The notes beneath the pieces were generated by a model that was not told where the DNA came from, searched no databases, and saw nothing but the letters and a program-made list of their open reading frames with translations. From Bdellovibrionales bacterium CG10_big_fil_rev_8_21_14_0_10_45_34 (GTDB lineage Bacteria; Bdellovibrionota; Bdellovibrionia; Bdellovibrionales; 1-14-0-10-45-34), in NCBI GenBank assembly GCA_002778785.1, contig PEZS01000011.1, positions 352,868 through 416,867 of the forward strand: 64,000 nt of DNA, given 5' to 3'. Shown here one piece after another: positions 4,976 through 63,397 of the stretch (positions within the stretch are counted from its first letter, which is position 1; each line of letters opens with the position of its first letter). Position numbers and translations under genes: made by a program.

Positions 4976-6324
4976 AACAGATTAAGCTACAAAAAGCCTT
5001 TGATATGTCTTTTCTGGTGATCGTTACGGCTTACGGACTGATGATCGTTAGCCTTTTTTACTGGGTATTCGAGCGTTTCGAATCAGAGATGTATAGTCGA
5101 GTTAAGGCAGAACTCATACTAATAGCAGATTCGCAGATTCCTTACCTTATCGAAGACTTCAACTCCGAATCTCACCAAAGTGTGCATCTTCGCAGCTTAG
5201 GCTTAACTGCCAACTATCGAGATCTGAAGCTCGCAATAAGAGTCAAAGATCAACAGGGTAAAGTTTGGAGTGAAGAGCCTTTGAATCTTGTTTCGAACTA
5301 CGCTGACTTGTCCGAATCCAAGAAAGTTTATGTAGTGAAAGACATAACGTACTTTCCGGATACGCTCGGGCATGTCGAAATTTGGGCCACCCCACCAGAC
5401 ACGTTGCTGGCTAAAAACAATGCGCTAATTTGGTCATTCTTAGTGGGTATTATTGCGCTCGTTCTTGGTCTATTCCTACATAGAAAATTCTTACATGTTT
5501 TTGCGTTGAAACCATTGCTGCAGCTTAAACATAGCGTCCGAAACTACAAGTATGGCGGAAGTTTTTCACTCCCAACGACGGGATCTGTGGACATTGCTGA
5601 ACTAGGCAATGAGTTCTCAACTCTTCTTAAGAAAGTTGAAGATGCCGACTCCAGAGAGAAAATTTCAGAAATGAAGTCTCAAATAGCTCGGCAGATCGCG
5701 CACGACATTCGATCACCCGTGTCGGTCCTAAAATCCGTGTTCACGACAGATAATTCTGAGCTACCTCAAAGTAAAGAACTCATATCAAAGGCTCTCTACA
5801 GAATTGAGAGCATTGCAAATGATCTACTTTACCGAACAGTTGATCTACAGATAGTCTCTGCCGAGGAGATTGCTGATTTAATTCAAAGTGTAGTTGAAGA
5901 AAAGAACATCGAGTTTGACCATCAAATTAGCTTATTATCTGATTTCCGACCCGGGCCAGCTAAGGTAAGAATGAGCAAGTCACACTTTAGTAGAATTGTT
6001 TCCAACCTAGTTAATAATAGTGCTCAAGCAAAAAAGAACTCCTTAGTAAAAATTGTTGTCAGCCTAAATGTCGTCAATGAAGAAGTTGTTGTTGCAATTA
6101 GCGATGACGGCGTCGGCATACCGGAAGATACCATACGAAGAGTTATTCAGGGCGATCAAGTTATCAGCGAGTCAGGGTTCGGCCTGGGCCTATCAAGTGC
6201 TCGTAACCAGATTTTGGCGTGGGATGCGAAGTTCACTATTGAAAGATTGAAAGATGCGGGAACGAAGGTAGAGATTCGCTTTCCGAGACAAGATATTAAC
6301 CCAACTGGAGCTACAGCATTTTGA
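4972..6324 (+). CDS. Transmembrane sensor histidine kinase
   Basis: Kinase of 450 aa with two membrane helices (about residues 12-35 and 150-170) bracketing a periplasmic domain of roughly 110 residues. A HAMP-like linker (ALKPLLQLKHSVRNYKYGG) follows, then the H-box IAHDIRSPVSVLK (His about 244), N-box NLVNNSAQA, G1 DDGVGIP and G2 GFGLGLS. Its ATG overlaps the stop of the binding protein by four bases (ATGA), indicating translational coupling. The H-box HDIRSPV is nearly identical to that of the upstream 7TM kinase, so the two may act on the same regulator. Confidence 0.85.
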   Translation: MKQIKLQKAFDMSFLVIVTAYGLMIVSLFYWVFERFESEMYSRVKAELILIADSQIPYLIEDFNSESHQSVHLRSLGLTANYRDLKLAIRVKDQQGKVWSEEPLNLVSNYADLSESKKVYVVKDITYFPDTLGHVEIWATPPDTLLAKNNALIWSFLVGIIALVLGLFLHRKFLHVFALKPLLQLKHSVRNYKYGGSFSLPTTGSVDIAELGNEFSTLLKKVEDADSREKISEMKSQIARQIAHDIRSPVSVLKSVFTTDNSELPQSKELISKALYRIESIANDLLYRTVDLQIVSAEEIADLIQSVVEEKNIEFDHQISLLSDFRPGPAKVRMSKSHFSRIVSNLVNNSAQAKKNSLVKIVVSLNVVNEEVVVAISDDGVGIPEDTIRRVIQGDQVISESGFGLGLSSARNQILAWDAKFTIERLKDAGTKVEIRFPRQDINPTGATAF

Positions 6325-53246: not shown

Positions 53247-54395
53247 ATGGAATCTAAACTAAAACTTTCAGAAATTTATGATAAGAATATAAATTTCATT
53301 ATTGGCTCAGGTGCTTCATTTGGACTTTTTCCTGTTTTGCAAGTCCCCATTAAGGATGAAAAAGATACTCAGCAGACGATAGAAACGCTGGCGACCTATT
53401 TTGAGAATAAAGGTGATAGCGGTCAAAAATCGAAAACTCTTTTATTTATGCATTATTATAAGACTTGTATAGAACCTATTTTAAATTTCGATTTTGAGGC
53501 AGTTAATGGTGATGCGACCAAAAAAGCAGTCCTCGATAATTATGAAAAGTTCATTAGAACAATTCTCTATATTTTAAGAAATAAGAAAAATGACGATAGA
53601 AAAAGCTGTAACTTATTTACGACAAATTATGATGGTTGCTTAGCTCATGTTTCCGATAGTGTGATTAAAAACGGAGAAGCTGACTTTATCTTAAATGATG
53701 GAGCAAGAGGCTTTTTTCGTAGGTATCTTGCTGCAAAAAACTATAACGCTTATACAAAGCAATCAGGAACCTTTGAACGTTATTCGACTCAAATTCCTCA
53801 AATTAATTTGATACCACTTCATGGTTCTGGTGCGTGGATAAAGGAAGGAGATGTTATACGCGTAGATTATGCACAAAAGGACGAATTAACAAAAAAATGT
53901 TCTGATGCGATACCAGATATTAAGTTATTTTCAGACTGTTTAAATGATTCATCCAAGAACATTTCCGATTTAGAAAAAATTGATATTGAAATTTCAAGCA
54001 GTAAGTTCTGGGAGGAATATAACAAGCTCCCAATAGTTAATCCAACTAAGTGGAAATTTTACGAAACTGTTTTCGAAGAACACTACTATCAGATGCTTCG
54101 GTATTTAAGCTATGAGTTAGAGAAACCAAATGCAGTTCTTATCACCTTTGGATTTTCATTTGCCGATGAACACATTTTAAATCTTGTAAAGAGATCGTTG
54201 GCCAACCCTAAGCTTCAGCTTTTCGTATCTTGTTTTAATCAAACTGAAGTTGATCTTTTATCTCAAAAATTTTCAAAATTTCCTAATGTAACTTTCTTGA
54301 CCGATCCTGTTAGTTTAGACTTTACAAAATTCAATGAGGAGCATTTTACGAAAGAGAAGAAAGAATCATCTACACCAGCAGGTAGCGCTACATGA
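53247..54395 (+). CDS. SIR2-domain NADase-like defence protein
   Basis: 382 aa of the SIR2_2 type. NAD-site motifs: NFIIGSGASFG (about 16-26), FTTNYDG (about 128), LIPLHGSGAW (about 190) and ITFGFSFADEHILNL near 300. It overlaps herA by four bases. SIR2-HerA pairs (Nezha-type) form a large complex that depletes NAD+ on infection. Only 15 bases separate it from brxL, so it is probably part of the BREX transcript. Confidence 0.85.
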   Translation: MESKLKLSEIYDKNINFIIGSGASFGLFPVLQVPIKDEKDTQQTIETLATYFENKGDSGQKSKTLLFMHYYKTCIEPILNFDFEAVNGDATKKAVLDNYEKFIRTILYILRNKKNDDRKSCNLFTTNYDGCLAHVSDSVIKNGEADFILNDGARGFFRRYLAAKNYNAYTKQSGTFERYSTQIPQINLIPLHGSGAWIKEGDVIRVDYAQKDELTKKCSDAIPDIKLFSDCLNDSSKNISDLEKIDIEISSSKFWEEYNKLPIVNPTKWKFYETVFEEHYYQMLRYLSYELEKPNAVLITFGFSFADEHILNLVKRSLANPKLQLFVSCFNQTEVDLLSQKFSKFPNVTFLTDPVSLDFTKFNEEHFTKEKKESSTPAGSAT

Positions 54396-56158
54396 CCATA
54401 AAAGTTGGAGAAGTTGTAGCCGTTAAGGGAGTCTCAATAACCATAAGAATGTTTGATGAATCTAATATAGACTCATTTTTCTATTCTGGTGACAAATACA
54501 ACGGTGTATCTATTCGAGAGCATCTTCTCATTCAGCGCGGCTTTATTAATATCGTATGCATTGTTGAAGGCGAGATGCTTGATGAAAAAAATAATGAGCA
54601 AGTTGGCGACAGGAGGAGCTATACAAGACATATAGAAGCCAAGCCGATTGGGTACTTCAAAGACAGTGAGTTTTTTGAGGGGATTAAATATTTGCCAATG
54701 ATAAAGGACTCGGTATATTTGATCGCTGAAAAAATGATTGCGGATATCTATAATCGGATCGGTGATGATCAATTTGTAGTTGGAAAGATGCTGAAAGAGG
54801 AGCTTCCAGTTTATCTACCTTGGCAAAAGCTTTTTAATACTCATTTAGGAATTTTTGGTAACACTGGAAGTGGGAAATCAAATACTCTAACTAAATTATT
54901 CACGACACTTTTCAGTTCAAAAAAAGATTTTCTTAGAGGTAAAAGCTAATTTGTATTACTTGATTTTAATGGGGAGTATACAGGTGGCCAGCTAATAGAT
55001 AATGAGAATAAAACAGTCATTCATCTAAATACTCGTGATAACGATGGACAAAAATTTCCATTGATTGACGACGAGTTTTGGGACATTGAAACATTAAGTA
55101 TTCTATTTCAAGCAACGACAAATACGCAAAGACCATTTTTGAGACGCTTAATTGATGGACGTGACAAGTTTAAAGCCGATCCAGATAGTTTATTGAAATA
55201 CACAAAATCTATTTTCCAAAAGGTCTTTTCCTCTGCTTCTCCAAAAAGAGATTGCCTTGATTTGTTAAGGTCTATTTCAAAGATAATTAGTAATGATTCT
55301 CTTTCCACAAAACTTAAAAGTATTCAGTGGCGATCAGGCAATAGTGAAAAATTTTATGAAGGAACTGTTTATTACGAAGCCGATGGGATCGCTTATGCTA
55401 ATCATATTGAGGCTATTGTAAACAACTCTACTGTAAATCTAGATGCCTTTGATGAATTGATTTTAAGAGCTAATATTCAACTATGTTATGAGTTGCTGTT
55501 TGGTTACGTTCAGTATGATCATATTCAACCACTTCTTAAAAGAATGGATTCACATCTAACGAGTCTCAAAAAAGTTATATCTGTAGTAGAGACACGAAAT
55601 GCCAGTAAGACATTAACCGTTATTTCTCTTAGGAAATGCAATCAAGATACAAAAAAGGTTATACCTCTTTTAATAGCCAAGCATTTTTACAATCACCATA
55701 AAAATAGCGTTACAAATCCACCAAATAGGACATTCCATTTAATTATTGATGAAGCTCATAATATTCTCTCTGAAGAGTCTTCTCGTGAAACTGAAATATG
55801 GAAAGATTATCGCTTGGAACTATTTGAGGAAATTATTAAAGAAGGTAGAAAATATGGGATGTTTTTGACAATTTCAAGCCAGCGGCCGGCAGATATTTCT
55901 CCTACGATTGTTTCTCAAATTCATAATTTTTTCATTCACCGTCTGGTAAATGATAGAGACTTAATGTTGATTGCAAATTCAATCAGCACACTCGACAAGC
56001 TTTCAAGGGATTTAATTCCTTCCTTGCCAAGAGGGGCATGTATTGTAACAGGAACGTCTTTTGCTCTCCCAATGGTAATTCTCGTGGACCTTCTTTCCAA
56101 AGAAAAACAGCCTGATAGTGAGGATGTCGATTTAGAAAAATTATGGAAAGCTGATTAA
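54392..56158 (+). pseudogene. HerA-type DNA-translocase partner of SIR2, interrupted by one in-frame TAA
   Basis: One continuous frame of 588 sense codons is broken only by TAA at 54947-54949. The part before it (185 aa) has the HAS-barrel-like domain and Walker A GNTGSGKSNT (about 156). The part after resumes directly with FVLLDFNGEYTGGQ, continues through Walker B HLIIDEAHNILS (about 448) and SSQRPADISPTIV, and is undamaged. No base insertion or loss is needed. A recent nonsense mutation, a sequencing error or readthrough are all possible. A TTG at 55061 could restart the second part but would lose the P-loop. Confidence 0.8.
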
Positions 56159-56854: not shown

Positions 56855-58140
56855 CGACCCGGAGACATGGGTGACAGTTTGTACCTAAGACATAGGTAAC
56901 ACTTTTGGTCCGAACGGGTTTGCTAAAGGTTCGAACCGACAACTATCGGTATCAAAATATCCTAAATCGTAATCCATAAAGGTCACAAGCCAAGTTCCAT
57001 CGCCGACCTCCTTAAGTCCAAGTTTTTGGCCCATAAACACCTTACTTAAATTGATTTTCATTTTCCCGATGCAAATTCGTCCGCAGCTCGTAACCTCGAT
57101 CTCTCGGTCATGCAGAGGATATTCGATCGGCTGTAGTCCCTGGTAACTTCGATCAGACCGGGTATAAATTTCGCTTGGATATTTCATGCCCAAGGCTTCA
57201 TGAGGACGATCCGTATTAAATTCTTCTAAAAAATCATCGAATTTTGCCTGCTGCTGCAAAAAATTTTGTCCTGCTGGTTTTGTAGCTTCTTTCTTTAAAG
57301 TTAAATGCATTCTTTCATGCCGGCCATTCTGCTGCGGACACCCCGGTTGGATTCTCTCGATCTGGATTCCAAGTCGTAACCACCAAACGGATAGCTTGCT
57401 TAAATTAAATAACGAGTTCGCTGACGCAAAGGGCACACCATTATCTGTCCTAATAGATTTTGGTAAGCCGTATTCTTTAAAAGTCTTTTCAAAAACTGTG
57501 AACGCGTAAATTTCTTTCGTCGTGCTGAGCCCCTCGCATCGAAGTAGATAGCGGCTTGCTTGATCCGTGATCGTTAAAGGGTAGCAATACTCCTTCGAGC
57601 CTAGCATAAACTCACCCTTGTAATCGGCACACCACAACTCATTGGGGTAACTTGCCTGGGATAACACTGTACCTTCTGCACGCCTTCTGATGCGGCCTCT
57701 TGGGATCACCAAACCATTGCGATCAAGAGCTGCATGGATCGTACTTTTTGCAGGAGTTCGGACATCAGGAAATTTTCTAATTAACTTTTCACGGATCTTT
57801 CTCGCACCCCAACTTGGATACTCTTTCTTCATATTTAAAATAAACTTTTCAACCTGAAGAGGGAGTTGATTCGCCAGACGAATGGGTCTTCGGCTACGAT
57901 CCGTAAACGCACCAGTGCCGATATCCTGATAGCGCTCTACAATCTTATAGCCAGTCTTTCTTGATATTCCGAACTCTCGGCAAAGGCTCGTCATAGATTC
58001 ACCATCTAAAAGCCTTGCGACAAACTTAACGCGCTCATCCATAACACTACGCTCCTTCCATGGCATAACCGCTTTCCCCCTTTTTGGGGAAAAGTGTAAC
58101 CTATGTGTCCGGTACGTTTTGTTACCTATGTCTCGGGTCG
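56855..58140 (-). mobile_element. IS481-family insertion sequence
   Basis: About 1.29 kb with imperfect terminal repeats: CGACCCGGAGACATGGGTGA at the left, and the inverse of CGACCCGAGACATAGGTAAC at the right. Each end carries a second inner ACATAGGT-type repeat. It holds one transposase gene. No target duplication is evident at either side, so it may have been rearranged. Confidence 0.75.
56885..58066 (-). CDS. IS481-family DDE transposase
   Basis: 393 aa. N-terminal HTH SMTSLCREFGISRKTGYKIV, then the catalytic core with Asp in ELWCADYKGEF, Asp in SIRTDNGVPF and Glu in QNGRHERMHL, all intact. The C-terminal part is MDYDLGYFDTDSCRFEPLANPF. Full length, so the element may be active. A related C-terminus reappears at 63916. 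Confidence 0.9.
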   Translation of the reverse strand: MPWKERSVMDERVKFVARLLDGESMTSLCREFGISRKTGYKIVERYQDIGTGAFTDRSRRPIRLANQLPLQVEKFILNMKKEYPSWGARKIREKLIRKFPDVRTPAKSTIHAALDRNGLVIPRGRIRRRAEGTVLSQASYPNELWCADYKGEFMLGSKEYCYPLTITDQASRYLLRCEGLSTTKEIYAFTVFEKTFKEYGLPKSIRTDNGVPFASANSLFNLSKLSVWWLRLGIQIERIQPGCPQQNGRHERMHLTLKKEATKPAGQNFLQQQAKFDDFLEEFNTDRPHEALGMKYPSEIYTRSDRSYQGLQPIEYPLHDREIEVTSCGRICIGKMKINLSKVFMGQKLGLKEVGDGTWLVTFMDYDLGYFDTDSCRFEPLANPFGPKVLPMS

Positions 58141-58262: not shown

Positions 58263-58703
58263 CTAACATTTTTTCTTCAAAACCGAATCGCCAGAAACTT
58301 TGCCAGCACCATTTGTAATAAGGAACGAAAAAACAAGAATATAGACAAACTCATAGATCTTAAAAATATCAGAGAAGACATTGATGTCATCTTTGTGGGC
58401 CGTAAGAATCGCAACGGCCATCGTGCTAGCGAGCAAGAAAGAAAAGACCCTTGTTCCAAGGCCTAATATAAGTGCAAGACCACCCACAAGTTCTAAGACT
58501 GCAATGAACGGCGCTTGCACTGAAGCAAAAGGAATTCCTAAAGATTCAAAGAAGCCCGTTACTTGGGCAAGGTTTCCTAGTTTTCCATAGCCGGCCCATA
58601 AGAAGACCCATCCTATGGCGAGCCTCGACAAAAGTGGTGGTAGCCACCCAAAACCATCAAGTACACCATACAACCACTTAACCTTTATTTTCATTTGTTC
58701 CAT
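58263..58703 (-). CDS. DoxX-family membrane protein
   Basis: 146 aa with four membrane helices, the pattern LLSRLAIGWVFLWAGYGKL and LELVGGLALILGLGTRVF. The start has GGGAGGT seven bases upstream. DoxX proteins often accompany DUF692/DUF2063 gene sets. It is divergent from the precursor-peptide gene, and both show the same ECF-type promoter motif. Confidence 0.8.
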   Translation of the reverse strand: MEQMKIKVKWLYGVLDGFGWLPPLLSRLAIGWVFLWAGYGKLGNLAQVTGFFESLGIPFASVQAPFIAVLELVGGLALILGLGTRVFSFLLASTMAVAILTAHKDDINVFSDIFKIYEFVYILVFSFLITNGAGKVSGDSVLKKKC

Positions 58704-58757: not shown

Positions 58758-58763
58758 TTTTTG

Positions 58764-58794
58764 TGTAATAAACTTATTTCTGGCTCCACTAAAC
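58764..58794 (+). promoter_or_regulatory. ECF-type promoter motif for the bufferin operon
   Basis: TGTAATAAA, then CACTAAAC with 17 bases between GTAAT and CACT, about 45 bases before the precursor start codon. Shared with two other units in this locus. Confidence 0.6.
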
Positions 58795-58841: not shown

Positions 58842-59144
58842 ATGAAACACGCATCATCAACTAAAAAGAATCTCGTATTGGCAGCGGCCCTAGCTAGTCT
58901 AGTTGGGACTGTCGCCTTGAATCCAAAAGTATCTTTTGCAGGCGACCACGATAAAAACGCTAAGATGGAAAAAAAGGGCGATGCCAAATGTGCAGATGGT
59001 AGTTGTGGAGATAAAAAAGATAAGAAGAAGAAAAAAGCCGACGCTAAATGTGCCGATGGAAGCTGCGGTGATAAGAAGGATAAGAAAAAGAAAAAAGGTG
59101 ATGCGAAGTGCGCTGATGGAAGCTGCGGCGACAAGAGTGAATAA
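58842..59144 (+). CDS. Bufferin-like RiPP precursor with three Cys-pair repeats
   Basis: 100 aa. Signal peptide NLVLAAALASLVGTVALNP ending near A33, then an Asp/Lys-rich mature region with three copies of a 20-residue unit whose constant part is AKCADGSCGDK (Cys 50/55, 70/75, 90/95). The repeats differ mostly by synonymous codons. The ATG at 58842 is preceded by AAAGGACGG. It overlaps the MNIO gene by one base. MNIO enzymes convert Cys of such exported peptides to copper-binding thiooxazoles; this precursor is the evident substrate. Confidence 0.75.
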   Translation: MKHASSTKKNLVLAAALASLVGTVALNPKVSFAGDHDKNAKMEKKGDAKCADGSCGDKKDKKKKKADAKCADGSCGDKKDKKKKKGDAKCADGSCGDKSE

Positions 59145-60013
59145 TGCCCGAGTCTGAAAGAAAAACTAAGTATCCCCAGCTCGGTTACGGGCTGGGACTT
59201 AGACCAGACCATTTCGATGAAGTTCTTGATGGCAAATCTGAAATGGATTGGTTTGAAGTTTTAGCTGAAAACTACATGGGTATTCCGGGGCACGGACAAA
59301 GTCCTTTGCTAAAAAAGCTTCTCCGTTTGCGAGAAAAATACTCATTGGTTCTTCATTGCGTTTCTATAAACATAGGCGCAACCAGCCCACTTGATTTCCA
59401 ATTTCTTAAAGATCTTAAAGAGCTAAAAAATTTAATTGAACCCTCTTGGTTATCAGATCACCTATGCTGGACAGGGATAGACGGTAAAAACACTCACGAG
59501 CTTTTACCTCTTCCGTATACAATAGAGGCCGTTCAACATGTCTCTGAAAGAATTCTGCAAGTTCAAGATTTTTTCGGAGAACGTTTTATGATTGAAAATA
59601 CCTCAAGTTATATCACGTACAAGTCATCCGAAATGACTGAGTGGGAATTTATCTCAGAAATAGTTAAAAAAACCGACTGCGGTATACTACTAGATGTAAA
59701 CAATGTGTTTGTTTCATCTCAAAATCACAGTTTTTCGCCAAAAAAGTTCTTAGATAGTGTCCCGTTTGCAAATGTGGGACAGATCCATATTGCAGGGCAT
59801 GATCGAAGATCAAATGGGCTTATTGTAGACACTCATGACTCAGCGGTTTGCGATGAAGTATATGATCTCATTTCTTACCTAAGCCTGAATAAAGAGTTGC
59901 CCTCTATCATGGTTGAGTGGGATGACAATATTCCGGATTTAAAAACCTACGAGGCACAAGTATTAAAGGTCAAAGAATCGCTAACGAGCCCAAAGGTGAA
60001 GGCATGGACTTAA
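59144..60013 (+). CDS. bufB: MNIO (DUF692) RiPP-modifying enzyme, BufB-like
   Basis: 289 aa, TIM-barrel multinuclear iron oxygenase. Family motifs: LGYGLGLRPDHFDEVL, WFEVLAENYMG, LHCVSINIGATSPLD, PSWLSDHLCWTG, FMIENTSSY, LLDVNNVFVSSQNH, IHIAGHD and IMVEWDDNIP, with the expected His/Asp/Glu iron ligands. It oxidises cysteines of the precursor peptide. It lies between the precursor and the DUF2063 partner. Confidence 0.88.
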   Translation: MPESERKTKYPQLGYGLGLRPDHFDEVLDGKSEMDWFEVLAENYMGIPGHGQSPLLKKLLRLREKYSLVLHCVSINIGATSPLDFQFLKDLKELKNLIEPSWLSDHLCWTGIDGKNTHELLPLPYTIEAVQHVSERILQVQDFFGERFMIENTSSYITYKSSEMTEWEFISEIVKKTDCGILLDVNNVFVSSQNHSFSPKKFLDSVPFANVGQIHIAGHDRRSNGLIVDTHDSAVCDEVYDLISYLSLNKELPSIMVEWDDNIPDLKTYEAQVLKVKESLTSPKVKAWT

Positions 60014-60732
60014 AATCAATTCAAAAAGAGATCTTTCAAATAGTAAGAACAACCGGAAATAGCGATAGTGATTTGGTTGTTTCAGATGAAAAATTAAAAG
60101 CAAGTGAACGTTTGCACACCTATAAAAGAAGCTCATATTTAAAGCCTCACTCCTGCTTAAGCGATGACTTTCAAGTAACTAAGAGTCTTCTTGGAGAAGA
60201 GCGATTTGATAAATTGGTTGAGTCCTATTTAACTCTATATCCAGCTGACACTCATTTTATAAATGAGTGCGGAAAGTACTTCCCTGATTTTTTGGCAGCT
60301 TCTAATGAAGCTAGTAGCTATCCATTCATAAAAGATCTCTCCCATCTTGAATGGTTGCGGGTTGAGAGTTTTTATGATTTTTTTAATTACAAAGATGAAA
60401 ATAAAAATTTAGGTAAAGTCGTCGTTAATCCTTCGATAAAAACTCTCTTAAGTGATTGGCCTTTGCACCTCATTTGGGATGAAGAGAAGGCGCATGGAAA
60501 AAAACTGACCAAAGTCTTTGTTTGGACGACTGAGGATCGAAGCGTTCATGTTCAAGCGTGGAGCGATGATGAAACAAAAATTTTAACCGAAATGCTTAGA
60601 AGCTCCTCTTTAGACTCTGCTGTAGAAATTTTGCTGTTGGATTTTGAATCGGAAAAACTCACTGAGATTTTAACTAAAAATCTATCTGCTTGGATAAATG
60701 CGGGCCTATTTGAAATAAAAGCCGAGACCTAA
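60004..60732 (+). CDS. bufC: DUF2063 partner protein, BufC-like
   Basis: 242 aa, overlapping the MNIO gene by ten bases. The N-terminal RLHTYKRSSYLKPHSCLSDDFQVTKSLLGEERF and the ADTHFINECGKYFPDFL segment are typical of the DUF2063 family, which binds the precursor and delivers it to the DUF692 enzyme. Its end overlaps the convergent anti-sigma gene by four bases. Confidence 0.8.
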   Translation: MDLKSIQKEIFQIVRTTGNSDSDLVVSDEKLKASERLHTYKRSSYLKPHSCLSDDFQVTKSLLGEERFDKLVESYLTLYPADTHFINECGKYFPDFLAASNEASSYPFIKDLSHLEWLRVESFYDFFNYKDENKNLGKVVVNPSIKTLLSDWPLHLIWDEEKAHGKKLTKVFVWTTEDRSVHVQAWSDDETKILTEMLRSSSLDSAVEILLLDFESEKLTEILTKNLSAWINAGLFEIKAET

Positions 60733-60971
60733 TCTTTAGGGTTTTGATTTTTCTCTATGATTTTCTTTTCAAGAGAGCGAATTTTTGAGTCTTCAACCTG
60801 GCCTAGCTTTCTAAACAAGTTTTTAAACCCTGACTTCATGAGTTCGAGGTGCTTAACGTAATTAGAGCAGTGTTTACACATCATAAGGTGCATGCGAAGC
60901 TCTGCACGCTTAAAAAACGGCAGATCCTCCTCTGAATTCACATTTTTAACCAGTTCTTTACACGACATCAT
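60729..60971 (-). CDS. Zinc-finger anti-sigma factor (ZAS type)
   Basis: 80 aa with HLMMCKHCSNYVKHLE, the HxxxCxxC zinc motif of anti-sigma domains, and no membrane helix, so it is a soluble sensor. It is 14 bases after the ECF sigma gene and is its probable inhibitor, releasing it under metal or oxidative stress. Confidence 0.75.
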   Translation of the reverse strand: MMSCKELVKNVNSEEDLPFFKRAELRMHLMMCKHCSNYVKHLELMKSGFKNLFRKLGQVEDSKIRSLEKKIIEKNQNPKD

Positions 60972-60985
60972 GACAAGATCTTCCT

Positions 60986-61573
60986 TTAAGACTTAGATTC
61001 AATACACTCTCTGAGCCTGTTTCTTGCTCGATAAAGCAGGACTCCTAAGTTAGTGACGGAAACCTCAAGAATCTTACAGATATCACTGCTCCCATGATCA
61101 TCAATTTCTTTTAAGCAAAATGCCATGCGCTGACTGAGCGGAAGTCGATCTATACATTTTTGAATAAGCGCCATCATCTGAGTGCTCGCCATAAATTTTT
61201 CTGGGTCAGTAGGAGGATTAGCCCAGTGGCCGTCTTCTGCAAATCGCGACTCCATGACCTCTTCAATAGGGTCATTGGCGCTATATTTTTTTTCTTCTCG
61301 TCGAAGTTCAGAGGCCTTGTTGTACATGATGCCAAAGATAAAGGTTCTGATATGGGATCTACCCTCAAAGGAGGCCACTACATCAAAAAAAGTGGACCAA
61401 ACTCGCTGGACAAGCTCTTCTGAATTAGGTTCATCAAATCCAAGTCCAAGTGCTGCCTTGTATAGATGCTCAGTGTAGGCTGTGACAAGTTTTGAGACAG
61501 CAGCGGAATCCCTGTTTTTCAAAAGCAAAAGAAAATCTGGATGACTAAAGTGTGTGTCTTTTTTTGCTCCCAT
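60986..61573 (-). CDS. ECF RNA polymerase sigma factor
   Basis: 195 aa. Region 2 EELVQRVWSTFFDVVASFEGRSHIRTFIFGIMYN and region 4 DRLPLSQRMAFCLKEIDDHGSSDICKILEVSVTNLGVLLYRARNRL. Paired with a zinc-finger anti-sigma. It probably recognises the GTAAK-N17-CACT motif found before three nearby units; I see no good copy before its own gene. Confidence 0.88.
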   Translation of the reverse strand: MGAKKDTHFSHPDFLLLLKNRDSAAVSKLVTAYTEHLYKAALGLGFDEPNSEELVQRVWSTFFDVVASFEGRSHIRTFIFGIMYNKASELRREEKKYSANDPIEEVMESRFAEDGHWANPPTDPEKFMASTQMMALIQKCIDRLPLSQRMAFCLKEIDDHGSSDICKILEVSVTNLGVLLYRARNRLRECIESKS

Positions 61574-61649: not shown

Positions 61650-61680
61650 TGTAAGAAATCGGGCCCTGACTTCACTTAGT
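61650..61680 (+). promoter_or_regulatory. ECF-type promoter motif for the AhpD/thioredoxin/CcdA operon
   Basis: TGTAAGAAA, then CACTTAGT with 17 bases between GTAAG and CACT. It also shares a TGNCTNCACT -10 context with the bufferin promoter. Confidence 0.6.
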
Positions 61681-61713: not shown

Positions 61714-62256
61714 ATGGGAAAAATCGGTTTGAAATCAGGGGACGATGTGTCAGGAGAAGTTAAAGAGATTCTTTCAGCAGTTGAGAAGAAATTTGGATTC
61801 GCACCCAATCTCATGAAAGTGTTTGCTTCTTCAGCACAGACATTAAAGGCATACCTTGCACTTGGTGACTTAGTGGCCGCTACAAGCTTTAGCCCTGAAG
61901 AACAGCAACTTATACTGCTCACCGTGAGCAGAGAAAATGAATGTGGGTACTGTCTGGCCGCGCACACCATGATTGCAACAAATCTCGCAAATGTGGATTC
62001 AGAGAAAGTAAGTGCCTTAAAGGCAGGAAAAAATCTTCAACCAGATAGACACGATCGGCTTGTGGAGTTTACATCTCAAGTTGTAAAAAAACGGGGCTTT
62101 GTCACTGAAGAGGACGTTTCTAAATTTAAAGCTGCGGGATTCGGTGATCAGCAAATTCTTGAAGTGATTTTGGCCGTTTCAATGAAAACTCTCAGTAACT
62201 ACGCCAATCATATTGCCGACACACCAATTGACCCGCAGTTTTCAAATCAAGAATAA
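61714..62256 (+). CDS. AhpD-like carboxymuconolactone-decarboxylase-family protein
   Basis: 180 aa. The redox motif ENECGYCLAAHT (CxxC plus His) and the family sequence FSPEEQQLILLTVSRE are intact. Such proteins reduce peroxide-linked disulphides. GGAGGG precedes the ATG. First gene of a three-gene operon with thioredoxin and CcdA. Confidence 0.82.
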   Translation: MGKIGLKSGDDVSGEVKEILSAVEKKFGFAPNLMKVFASSAQTLKAYLALGDLVAATSFSPEEQQLILLTVSRENECGYCLAAHTMIATNLANVDSEKVSALKAGKNLQPDRHDRLVEFTSQVVKKRGFVTEEDVSKFKAAGFGDQQILEVILAVSMKTLSNYANHIADTPIDPQFSNQE

Positions 62257-62285
62257 TGGTTAAATTCATATCAAGGAGATTCATA

Positions 62286-62681
62286 ATGAAGAATAAATTT
62301 TTAATGATTTTGGCAATAGGCTTATTTTCAAGTCTAGCTTCTTTTGCCTTCGATGCGCCAAGCTTTAATGAGAAAAGTTTTAAAGAAAATCAAGCTAAAG
62401 GCGAAGCCATTTTGGTTGATGTCTATGCCAAGTGGTGTCCCACTTGCAAGAAGCAGCACGCTGAGCTTGTAGAAATCTTTAACGATGAAAAATATAAAGG
62501 GATAAAATCCTACAAACTTGATTATGATGACAAGGATCTTGTTAAGAAGTTTTCAAATCTCATCGGAAAGCCTATCCCGAGACAATCTACGATCGTGGTA
62601 TTAAAAGGAAAAGAAATTGTTGCTTTCTCAATTGCCGAAACGGGTGAGAAACTAAAGTCTTCAATTGATAAGGCCCTTTAA
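62286..62681 (+). CDS. Periplasmic thioredoxin-family protein
   Basis: 131 aa from the ATG at 62286, with AAGGAG upstream. Signal peptide FLMILAIGLFSSLASFAF and thioredoxin active site AKWCPTCKKQH. The cis-Pro loop is IPRQSTIVV. It probably keeps exported cysteines (for example the precursor peptide) reduced. Overlaps ccdA by one base. Confidence 0.82.
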   Translation: MKNKFLMILAIGLFSSLASFAFDAPSFNEKSFKENQAKGEAILVDVYAKWCPTCKKQHAELVEIFNDEKYKGIKSYKLDYDDKDLVKKFSNLIGKPIPRQSTIVVLKGKEIVAFSIAETGEKLKSSIDKAL

Positions 62682-63397
62682 TGATTGGGCAGATGACCCT
62701 TGCCGTACTCGCTGGAGCGGTTACTACGCTCTCGCCTTGTGTGATTCCAGTCATACCGCTGGTTGTGGGCGGCGCTTCGCACTCGGCAAGGTTTGGCCCA
62801 CTTTATCTGCTCTTAGGACTTGTGACTTCATTTACTCTCACAGGGACATTTGCGGCGGCCCTTTTATTTAAACTAGGACTTCCGCCAGATATGTTAACCC
62901 AAGGGGCAGCAGTCCTTTTAATTCTGGTCGGTGCTTTTTTATTTTTTTCCTTTCTTGATAATCTGTTTAAGTCTTCAACTGATGGTTTGTCTCAGTGGGC
63001 AAATAACTTTATCAGTACACATAAGCTCTCTGGCCCTTTAGGGCAGTTTACCATTGGTGCACTTATTGGGCTTATTTGGGCGCCTTGTACGGGCCCAACA
63101 CTCGGCGCGGCAATTTCCTTGGCTTCGCAAGGTGAAAATCTCTTTGAATCATTTGTTGTGATGCTTTCCTTCTCGCTTGGCGCTTGCTTGCCATTAGGAG
63201 TCTATGGCTCTGTTGCAAACCTGTGGGTCAAACGAAAGGGGCAAATTATTAAATTCGGCCAGGGTTTAAGAAAGGCCGTGGCGTTATTGTTTATTTTCGT
63301 GGGCGTTTCAATTTTACTTGGGTGGCATAAAGCGCTTGAAACTTGGCTGCTCGGGCATCTTCCTGAATGGTGGGTGAACTTGATCACTCGATTCTAA
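62681..63397 (+). CDS. CcdA/DsbD-like transmembrane electron carrier
   Basis: 238 aa with six membrane helices and Cys residues in LSPCVIPVIPLVVG and LIWAPCTGPTLGA, the pair that moves electrons from cytoplasmic thioredoxin to the periplasm. It forms a reductant pathway with the preceding thioredoxin. Ends four bases from a convergent gene. Confidence 0.85.
   Translation: MIGQMTLAVLAGAVTTLSPCVIPVIPLVVGGASHSARFGPLYLLLGLVTSFTLTGTFAAALLFKLGLPPDMLTQGAAVLLILVGAFLFFSFLDNLFKSSTDGLSQWANNFISTHKLSGPLGQFTIGALIGLIWAPCTGPTLGAAISLASQGENLFESFVVMLSFSLGACLPLGVYGSVANLWVKRKGQIIKFGQGLRKAVALLFIFVGVSILLGWHKALETWLLGHLPEWWVNLITRF

Follow-up and report, generated by a model that had tools for sequence, protein, structure and literature searches.

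Repeat-type captophorins have been described mostly from Pseudomonadota, and the chemistry of MNIO enzymes is diverse. Pairs of an MNIO and a PME1 partner install 5-thiooxazole on the Cys of repeated 5-mers (PMC13097082). For one such pair, FonBC, modification of a DGKCG variant was complete; Ala, Arg and Thr were accepted at position 3, and Ala alone among the position-5 variants (PMC13097082). With MmrA the loss of hydrogen follows the number of cassettes: peptides with one, two and three cassettes show -8H, -16H and -24H, respectively (PMC12538549).

Here we study a locus in a 64,000-nucleotide stretch of Bdellovibrionales DNA (the window, to whose positions all coordinates refer) and establish its anatomy, the conservation of its repeats, the families of its enzyme and partner, its synteny and the spacing of its promoters. 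Taken as a whole, the locus is likely a captophorin-type (MNIO-PME1) RiPP operon, making a thiooxazole metal-binding peptide under the control of a sigma factor.

The precursor gene (hvfA/mmrA-like; 58842..59144, + strand) begins at an ATG with a Shine-Dalgarno-like AAAGGA upstream, and its translation, MKHASSTKKNLVLAAALASLVGTVALNPKVSFA-GDHDKNAKMEKKGDAKCADGSCGDKKDKKKKKADAKCADGSCGDKKDKKKKKGDAKCADGSCGDKSE, is 100 residues long and holds six Cys. A Sec-type signal peptide, read by inspection as residues 1-33 with the cut between VSFA and GDHDK, is followed by three Cys-pair cassettes. A longer TTG-started ORF at 58761 was rejected as an over-extension of the same frame. A repeat search of the precursor DNA returns three in-register 60-nt copies, the second 77% and the third 72% identical to the first, which recovers the three 20-residue units, each with one Cys pair and a Lys-rich linker, that the sequence-only reading had described: unit 1 (DKNAKMEKKGDAKCADGSCG; 58950..59009, +), unit 2 (DKKDKKKKKADAKCADGSCG; 59010..59069, +) and unit 3 (DKKDKKKKKGDAKCADGSCG; 59070..59129, +). 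That reading also took the units to be nearly identical in protein, and this is true of the cassette in all three copies and of units 2 and 3 over their full 20 residues. It does not extend to the linker of unit 1, which is KNAKMEKK where units 2 and 3 have KKDKKKKK. Exact identity is limited to the 12-residue cassette DAKCADGSCGDK, which parses as two 5-mers, DAKCA-DGSCG, repeated three times, with Cys at position 4 of each 5-mer and thus two Cys per cassette. The three-repeat design had been called unusual, which is not supported as regards its kind: for the EGKCG group, tandem two-Cys cassettes set between Lys-rich spacers have already been published (MmrA in PMC12538549; fontiphorin, oxazolin and gonophorin in PMC13097082), and in the Microbulbifer elongatus precursor four cassettes are arranged in this way.

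At the DNA level the cassette copies are far from identical, differing pairwise at 8, 10 and 7 of their 36 nucleotides. All of these differences are silent: third codon positions vary in 11 of 12 codons and first and second positions in 0 of 24. In a crude uniform model in which about 18.5% of random single changes are synonymous, the probability that all of the at least 14 changes would be silent is about 6e-11. The copies are therefore not recent, and the precursor peptide is under purifying selection, as had been argued from the synonymous differences between the units. A Lys-rich peptide encoded by A-rich DNA might be suspected of being a chance low-complexity ORF, and we regard this reading as refuted to the point of being practically negligible: besides the purely synonymous divergence of the cassettes, the ORF has a signal peptide, it overlaps the next gene of an operon, and its C-terminal cassette is kept in two other genomes.

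Known precursor families capture this peptide poorly. Against the NCBIfam HvfA profile (NF050188) it gives a weak match of 25.3 bits (E 1.8e-5), below the cut-off of 95, and against KCGExKCG_twice (NF050137) it gives no match, where the Microbulbifer control scores 79 bits. The precursor has no Pfam DUF2282 match, which bears out its description as unlike the DUF2282 bufferins, and both the DUF2282 signature and the Buf2 six-Cys pattern are absent from it.

Directly downstream, as had been noted, lie the genes for an MNIO enzyme (59144..60013, +; PF05114 312 bits, cut-off 25) and a DUF2063/HvfC-like partner of PME-type 1 (60004..60732, +; PF09836 52 bits, E 6.6e-14, above cut-off). The ATG of the MNIO gene overlaps the stop codon of the precursor (TAATG), and the MNIO and DUF2063 genes overlap by 10 bases. 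We can ask whether the peptide is simply left unmodified, a secreted Lys- and Cys-rich binder of metal or of DNA or another polyanion, with the MNIO acting elsewhere. The mature chain is indeed very Lys-rich (22/67 residues, predicted pI 9.1), and still we hold this to be very improbable, since the three genes, for precursor, MNIO and partner, follow one another in a single operon with overlapping or touching ends, and their pairing is kept in three genomes.

The MNIO clears the cut-off of the NCBIfam MNIO_BufB profile narrowly (314 versus 310 bits). Its conserved motifs are intact and include the equivalents (LDVNN, DTH) of N175, D242 and H244, which are essential in HvfB (PMC13419390). In FonB the second Arg (Arg16) and Phe250 are typical of Lys-Cys enzymes (PMC13097082). 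The Arg15-Arg16/Phe250 signature is absent from the window enzyme, where the aligned residues are R20-P21 and D260-D261. The MNIOs of the window and of loci L093 and L094 also carry the motif LHCVS, where nearly all other MNIOs of the class have LHGV or LHGL; its Cys adjoins an invariant His and is seen only together with KCADGSCG precursors. In an unconstrained tree the window enzyme falls in a three-member clade (support 100/99) among Bdellovibrionales enzymes, apart from the EGKCG enzymes. A joint clade of the window and EGKCG MNIOs is not rejected by the AU test (p 0.17), so an independent origin of the cassettes is a possibility rather than a result.

It is natural to wonder whether such an enzyme performs some other reaction, for example oxazolone/thioamide formation or beta-carbon excision, in which case the locus would encode a RiPP that is no thiooxazole metallophore. 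The diversity of MNIO chemistry, the separate three-row branch (100/99) of the window enzyme and the Cys of LHCVS, beside a conserved His at a position that is mostly Gly elsewhere, all lean this way. Against it, every MNIO with a PME1 partner that PMC13097082 characterised makes 5-thiooxazole, the window enzyme and its partner match that group, and the oxazolone assignment of HvfA was itself revised in the same work (PMC13097082). On balance we consider another reaction improbable and keep to thiooxazole formation.

The partner matches the NCBIfam HvfC profile over residues 34-234 (60.6 bits, E 1.9e-16, cut-off 142). Its low-confidence AlphaFold model (pLDDT 64), with TglI (8hi7_A) as the best fold match (E 0.03), weakly suggests an RRE fold. 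A PDB profile search with the partner alignment gave a weak match to 3DEE (E 0.093), which ranked below interferon-gamma matches judged spurious and was set aside.

From these parts we infer as follows which chemistry takes place, how many sites it uses, that export comes after modification and which metal is bound. The DUF2063/HvfC-like protein would bind the precursor, and the MNIO would oxidise its Cys before the peptide leaves the cytoplasm. Each X-Cys step would yield a 5-thiooxazole and a free thiol with the loss of 4H per Cys, giving up to six sites and -24H for the peptide. Export through the Sec signal peptide would then bring this basic, Lys-rich chain into the periplasm, and there its thiol/thiooxazole cassettes could capture copper or another soft metal of similar kind. 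As first proposed, a chain with several thiooxazole sites remains our best estimate. The accompanying mass prediction of 4 Da for each Cys pair has to be doubled: 4 Da would be lost per Cys, hence 8 per cassette and 24 per peptide. The predicted masses of the mature 67-residue chain are 7019.35 Da unmodified and 6995.16 Da with all six Cys converted. By our comparison with FonBC, every substitution in DAKCA-DGSCG except Ser at position 3 has a published tolerance in a related enzyme.

How many of the six sites are used is a question within the captophorin explanation. Either the second Cys (Gly-Ser-Cys) or the first (Lys-Cys-Ala) may stay a thiol or disulfide, leaving three modified sites instead of six. 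The two Cys contexts do differ (KCA and SCG), and FonBC put just one modification on several altered substrates (PMC13097082); nevertheless, both Cys are invariant in every cassette and both positions have tolerated counterparts in the FonBC assays. We accordingly think partial modification rather unlikely, while giving it more weight than any other alternative to six modified sites.

We now consider how widely the cassette is distributed. The coding pattern of the cassette occurs in only three of 368 genomes of the phylum, the window's own and two relatives, in 3+1+1 copies. In a collection of 84,980 species the pattern KCADGSCG has 58 matches, two of which adjoin an MNIO gene and belong to the same two relatives; the remaining matches, at loci without an MNIO gene and most of them in out-of-context frames, were taken as chance. 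The search for the repeat in other genomes that had been suggested thus places KCADGSCG beside an MNIO only in the window and in two related Bdellovibrionales MAGs. These are G127 and G097 (contigs JAUVAX010000057, Pseudobdellovibrionaceae, and JABJQG010000047, Bdellovibrionaceae), which also hold the closest class relatives of the window MNIO (58-59% identity). Both came to light by way of their MNIO genes and of the DNA pattern of the cassette; a search with the precursor protein in 143 genomes of the class at E 1e-3 matched only the window itself. Loss of the cysteines in relatives that keep the MNIO was looked for, and both close relatives retain them: each precursor ends in a single C-terminal KCADGSCG, with diverged Cys units such as SKCGGGSCGENMGKKKGHK before it. 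Because the single C-terminal cassette is common to both relatives, multiplication within the lineage of the window is the simplest account of the three copies, the alternative being that cassettes were lost in both relatives.

Across the class, MNIO genes are preceded by Cys-rich signal-peptide precursors. Those before Bdellovibrionales MNIO genes (L008-L031) are highly varied, with six-Cys CKGKG types, KNSCKGK repeats and two-Cys types, and form an unsorted reservoir of candidate peptides. The window genome (G000) itself has three MNIO genes. One of the other two (L004, G000:C8:133064-136855) lies with two tandem short precursors (ORFs 2384-2599 and 2732-2956, -), each with one CxxxxC Cys pair, one ending in KCGSEGCG and the other in KCKGEDC followed by a DHG repeat. 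The third (L002/L095, G000:C1, ~105103-108888) comprises a YceI-like gene, two Buf2-like six-Cys precursors, the MNIO and a partner, with TGTAAG-N17-CAC close to where the operon begins; an AhpD-like peroxidase homolog and a glutaredoxin lie convergent to it.

The surroundings of the window operon had been overlooked in the sequence-only reading, which passed over a divergent DoxX/HvfX gene, a sigma/anti-sigma pair and promoters. Divergent from the precursor is a gene for a DoxX-family, HvfX-like membrane protein (58263..58703, -; PF07681 E 1.9e-20; HvfX 67.3 bits, cut-off 80), which is kept in both close relatives (55-57% identity). On the other side follow an anti-sigma factor of the zinc-finger type with a CXXC motif (60729..60971, -; NCBIfam antisigmaE 44.3 bits, cut-off 50), whose ortholog adjoins the sigma gene in L094, and an ECF sigma factor (60986..61573, -; PF08281 E 1.4e-10, TIGR02937 above cut-off). 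Beyond them, genes for an AhpD-like peroxidase-related protein (61714-62256, +), a thioredoxin-fold protein (62256-62681, +) and a DsbD/CcdA-like membrane protein (62681-63397, +) are probably a co-regulated redox operon (61714..63397) outside the biosynthetic core; peroxidase homologs also adjoin other MNIO loci (L095, L116, L118). Further away, an IS481-like transposase gene (56885-58066, -; 214 bits, cut-off 224) separates the DoxX gene from a SIR2 gene followed by HerA (53247-56158, +). SIR2 and HerA are a known anti-phage pair; here HerA is divided between two ORFs (54392-54949 and 55061-56158) and may be broken or mis-assembled.

When the cell meets metal or oxidative stress, the adjacent sigma/anti-sigma pair probably activates both the precursor operon and the DoxX gene divergent from it, and would do so through promoters of the form TGTAAK-N17-CAC. 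One such promoter-like element, TGTAAT-N17-CAC (58764..58789, +), ends 52 bases before the precursor start, and a second, TGTAAG-N17-CAC (61650..61675, +), stands before the peroxidase-related operon; the hvfX region of the window holds a near match read by eye, AGTAAT-N17-CAC. No sigma-70 promoter turned up at the precursor operon in a scan for consensus promoters. In each of the two relatives TGTAA[GT]-N17-CAC is present in the promoter regions of both hvfA and hvfX, four regions in all. In the regions upstream of MNIO genes, TGTAA and CAC are separated by N18 at seven sites and by any other spacing from 8 to 29 at no more than two, a count that is not fully independent in that part of these sequences had led us to the motif in the first place. 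Loci retrieved later give more independent support: in them TGTAAK-N17-CAC occurs before the MNIO operon in L095, L116, L117 and L119 and before the peroxidase-related genes in L116 and L118. Genome-wide the motif is not enriched (35 matches versus 31 for a reversed control), and the promoter claim therefore rests on position and fixed spacing.

The company kept by the sigma factor points the same way. Six genomes other than the window's hold an ortholog (>48% identity), and in five of the six (G097, G113, G046, G001 and G070) it lies within ~3 kb of an MNIO gene. TGTAAK-N17-CAC sites precede MNIO operons in six class genomes, five of which have an ortholog of the locus sigma factor. G127 has both promoters, yet no sigma ortholog at E 1e-30. 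We infer that the locus sigma factor reads these promoters. Elsewhere in the window genome (L115, G000:C1:130000-139000) a second sigma/anti-sigma pair at 5238-6112, its sigma 66% identical to that of the window, has a convergent pair of TGTAAK-N17-CAC sites ~1.5 kb upstream. A broader scenario, which we offer only tentatively, is that a BufB-like branch of Bdellovibrionales MNIOs gained its tandem KCADGSCG thiooxazole cassettes independently of the EGKCG group of Pseudomonadota, under a TGTAAK-N17-CAC sigma regulon that ties captophorins to DoxX and to a peroxidase/thioredoxin operon.

The discovery is a modest one, with published precedents for both chemistry and layout. It extends repeat-type captophorins into Bdellovibrionota with a distinct cassette and, because single-cassette relatives exist, supplies a natural series for testing cassette number against metal binding. 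The promoter element defines a testable regulon joining MNIO peptides to DoxX and thiol-redox genes, which bears on the question of which stress these very common peptides answer.

How does the locus compare with the systems already described? To the 'CxxxxC' precursor group it is likened by signal peptide and CxxxxC spacing, and the Lactamase_B_2 gene found in 54% of the loci of that group (PMC12452194) is missing here. With the bufferins (BufA1/DUF2282, BufA2; PMC12452194) it shares an MNIO above the BufB cut-off and DUF2063, DoxX and sigma neighbours, the difference lying in a precursor that lacks both the DUF2282 signature and the six-Cys pattern of Buf2. The Caulobacter SigF regulon likewise places an ECF sigma over DUF2282-MNIO-DUF2063 and DoxX genes, and its promoter, GTAACC-N16-CGAA, shares the GTAA-N18-C geometry of the GTAAK-N17-CAC in the window (PMC3511200), whereas the anti-sigma is NrsF/DUF1109 there and of the zinc-finger type here, and the -10 element is CGAA there and CAC here. 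Fontiphorin, oxazolin and gonophorin (PMC13097082) share the MNIO-PME1 pair and the repeated 5-mers with Cys at position 4 and a small residue after it, so that EAKCG-EGKCG of fontiphorin aligns with DAKCA-DGSCG; the locus described here differs in an MNIO without Arg16 and Phe250, in Ser at position 3 of the second 5-mer and in a precursor below the HvfA-family cut-offs. With MmrABC of Microbulbifer (PMC12538549) the locus has in common a signal-peptide precursor with three tandem two-Cys cassettes and six Cys in all, the two Cys of a cassette five residues apart and Lys runs between cassettes, and an MNIO and DUF2063 directly downstream. The cassette is EGKCGEGKCG there and DAKCADGSCG here, the window locus has DoxX and sigma genes, and the kinship of the enzymes is distant, the match of the window MNIO to the Microbulbifer elongatus enzyme being the weakest among eleven references (phmmer, 159 bits). 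The layout, then, is already published, and the cassette sequence, the lineage and the promoter element are new: the locus is a real, selected and rare sequence variant of repeat-type captophorin loci.
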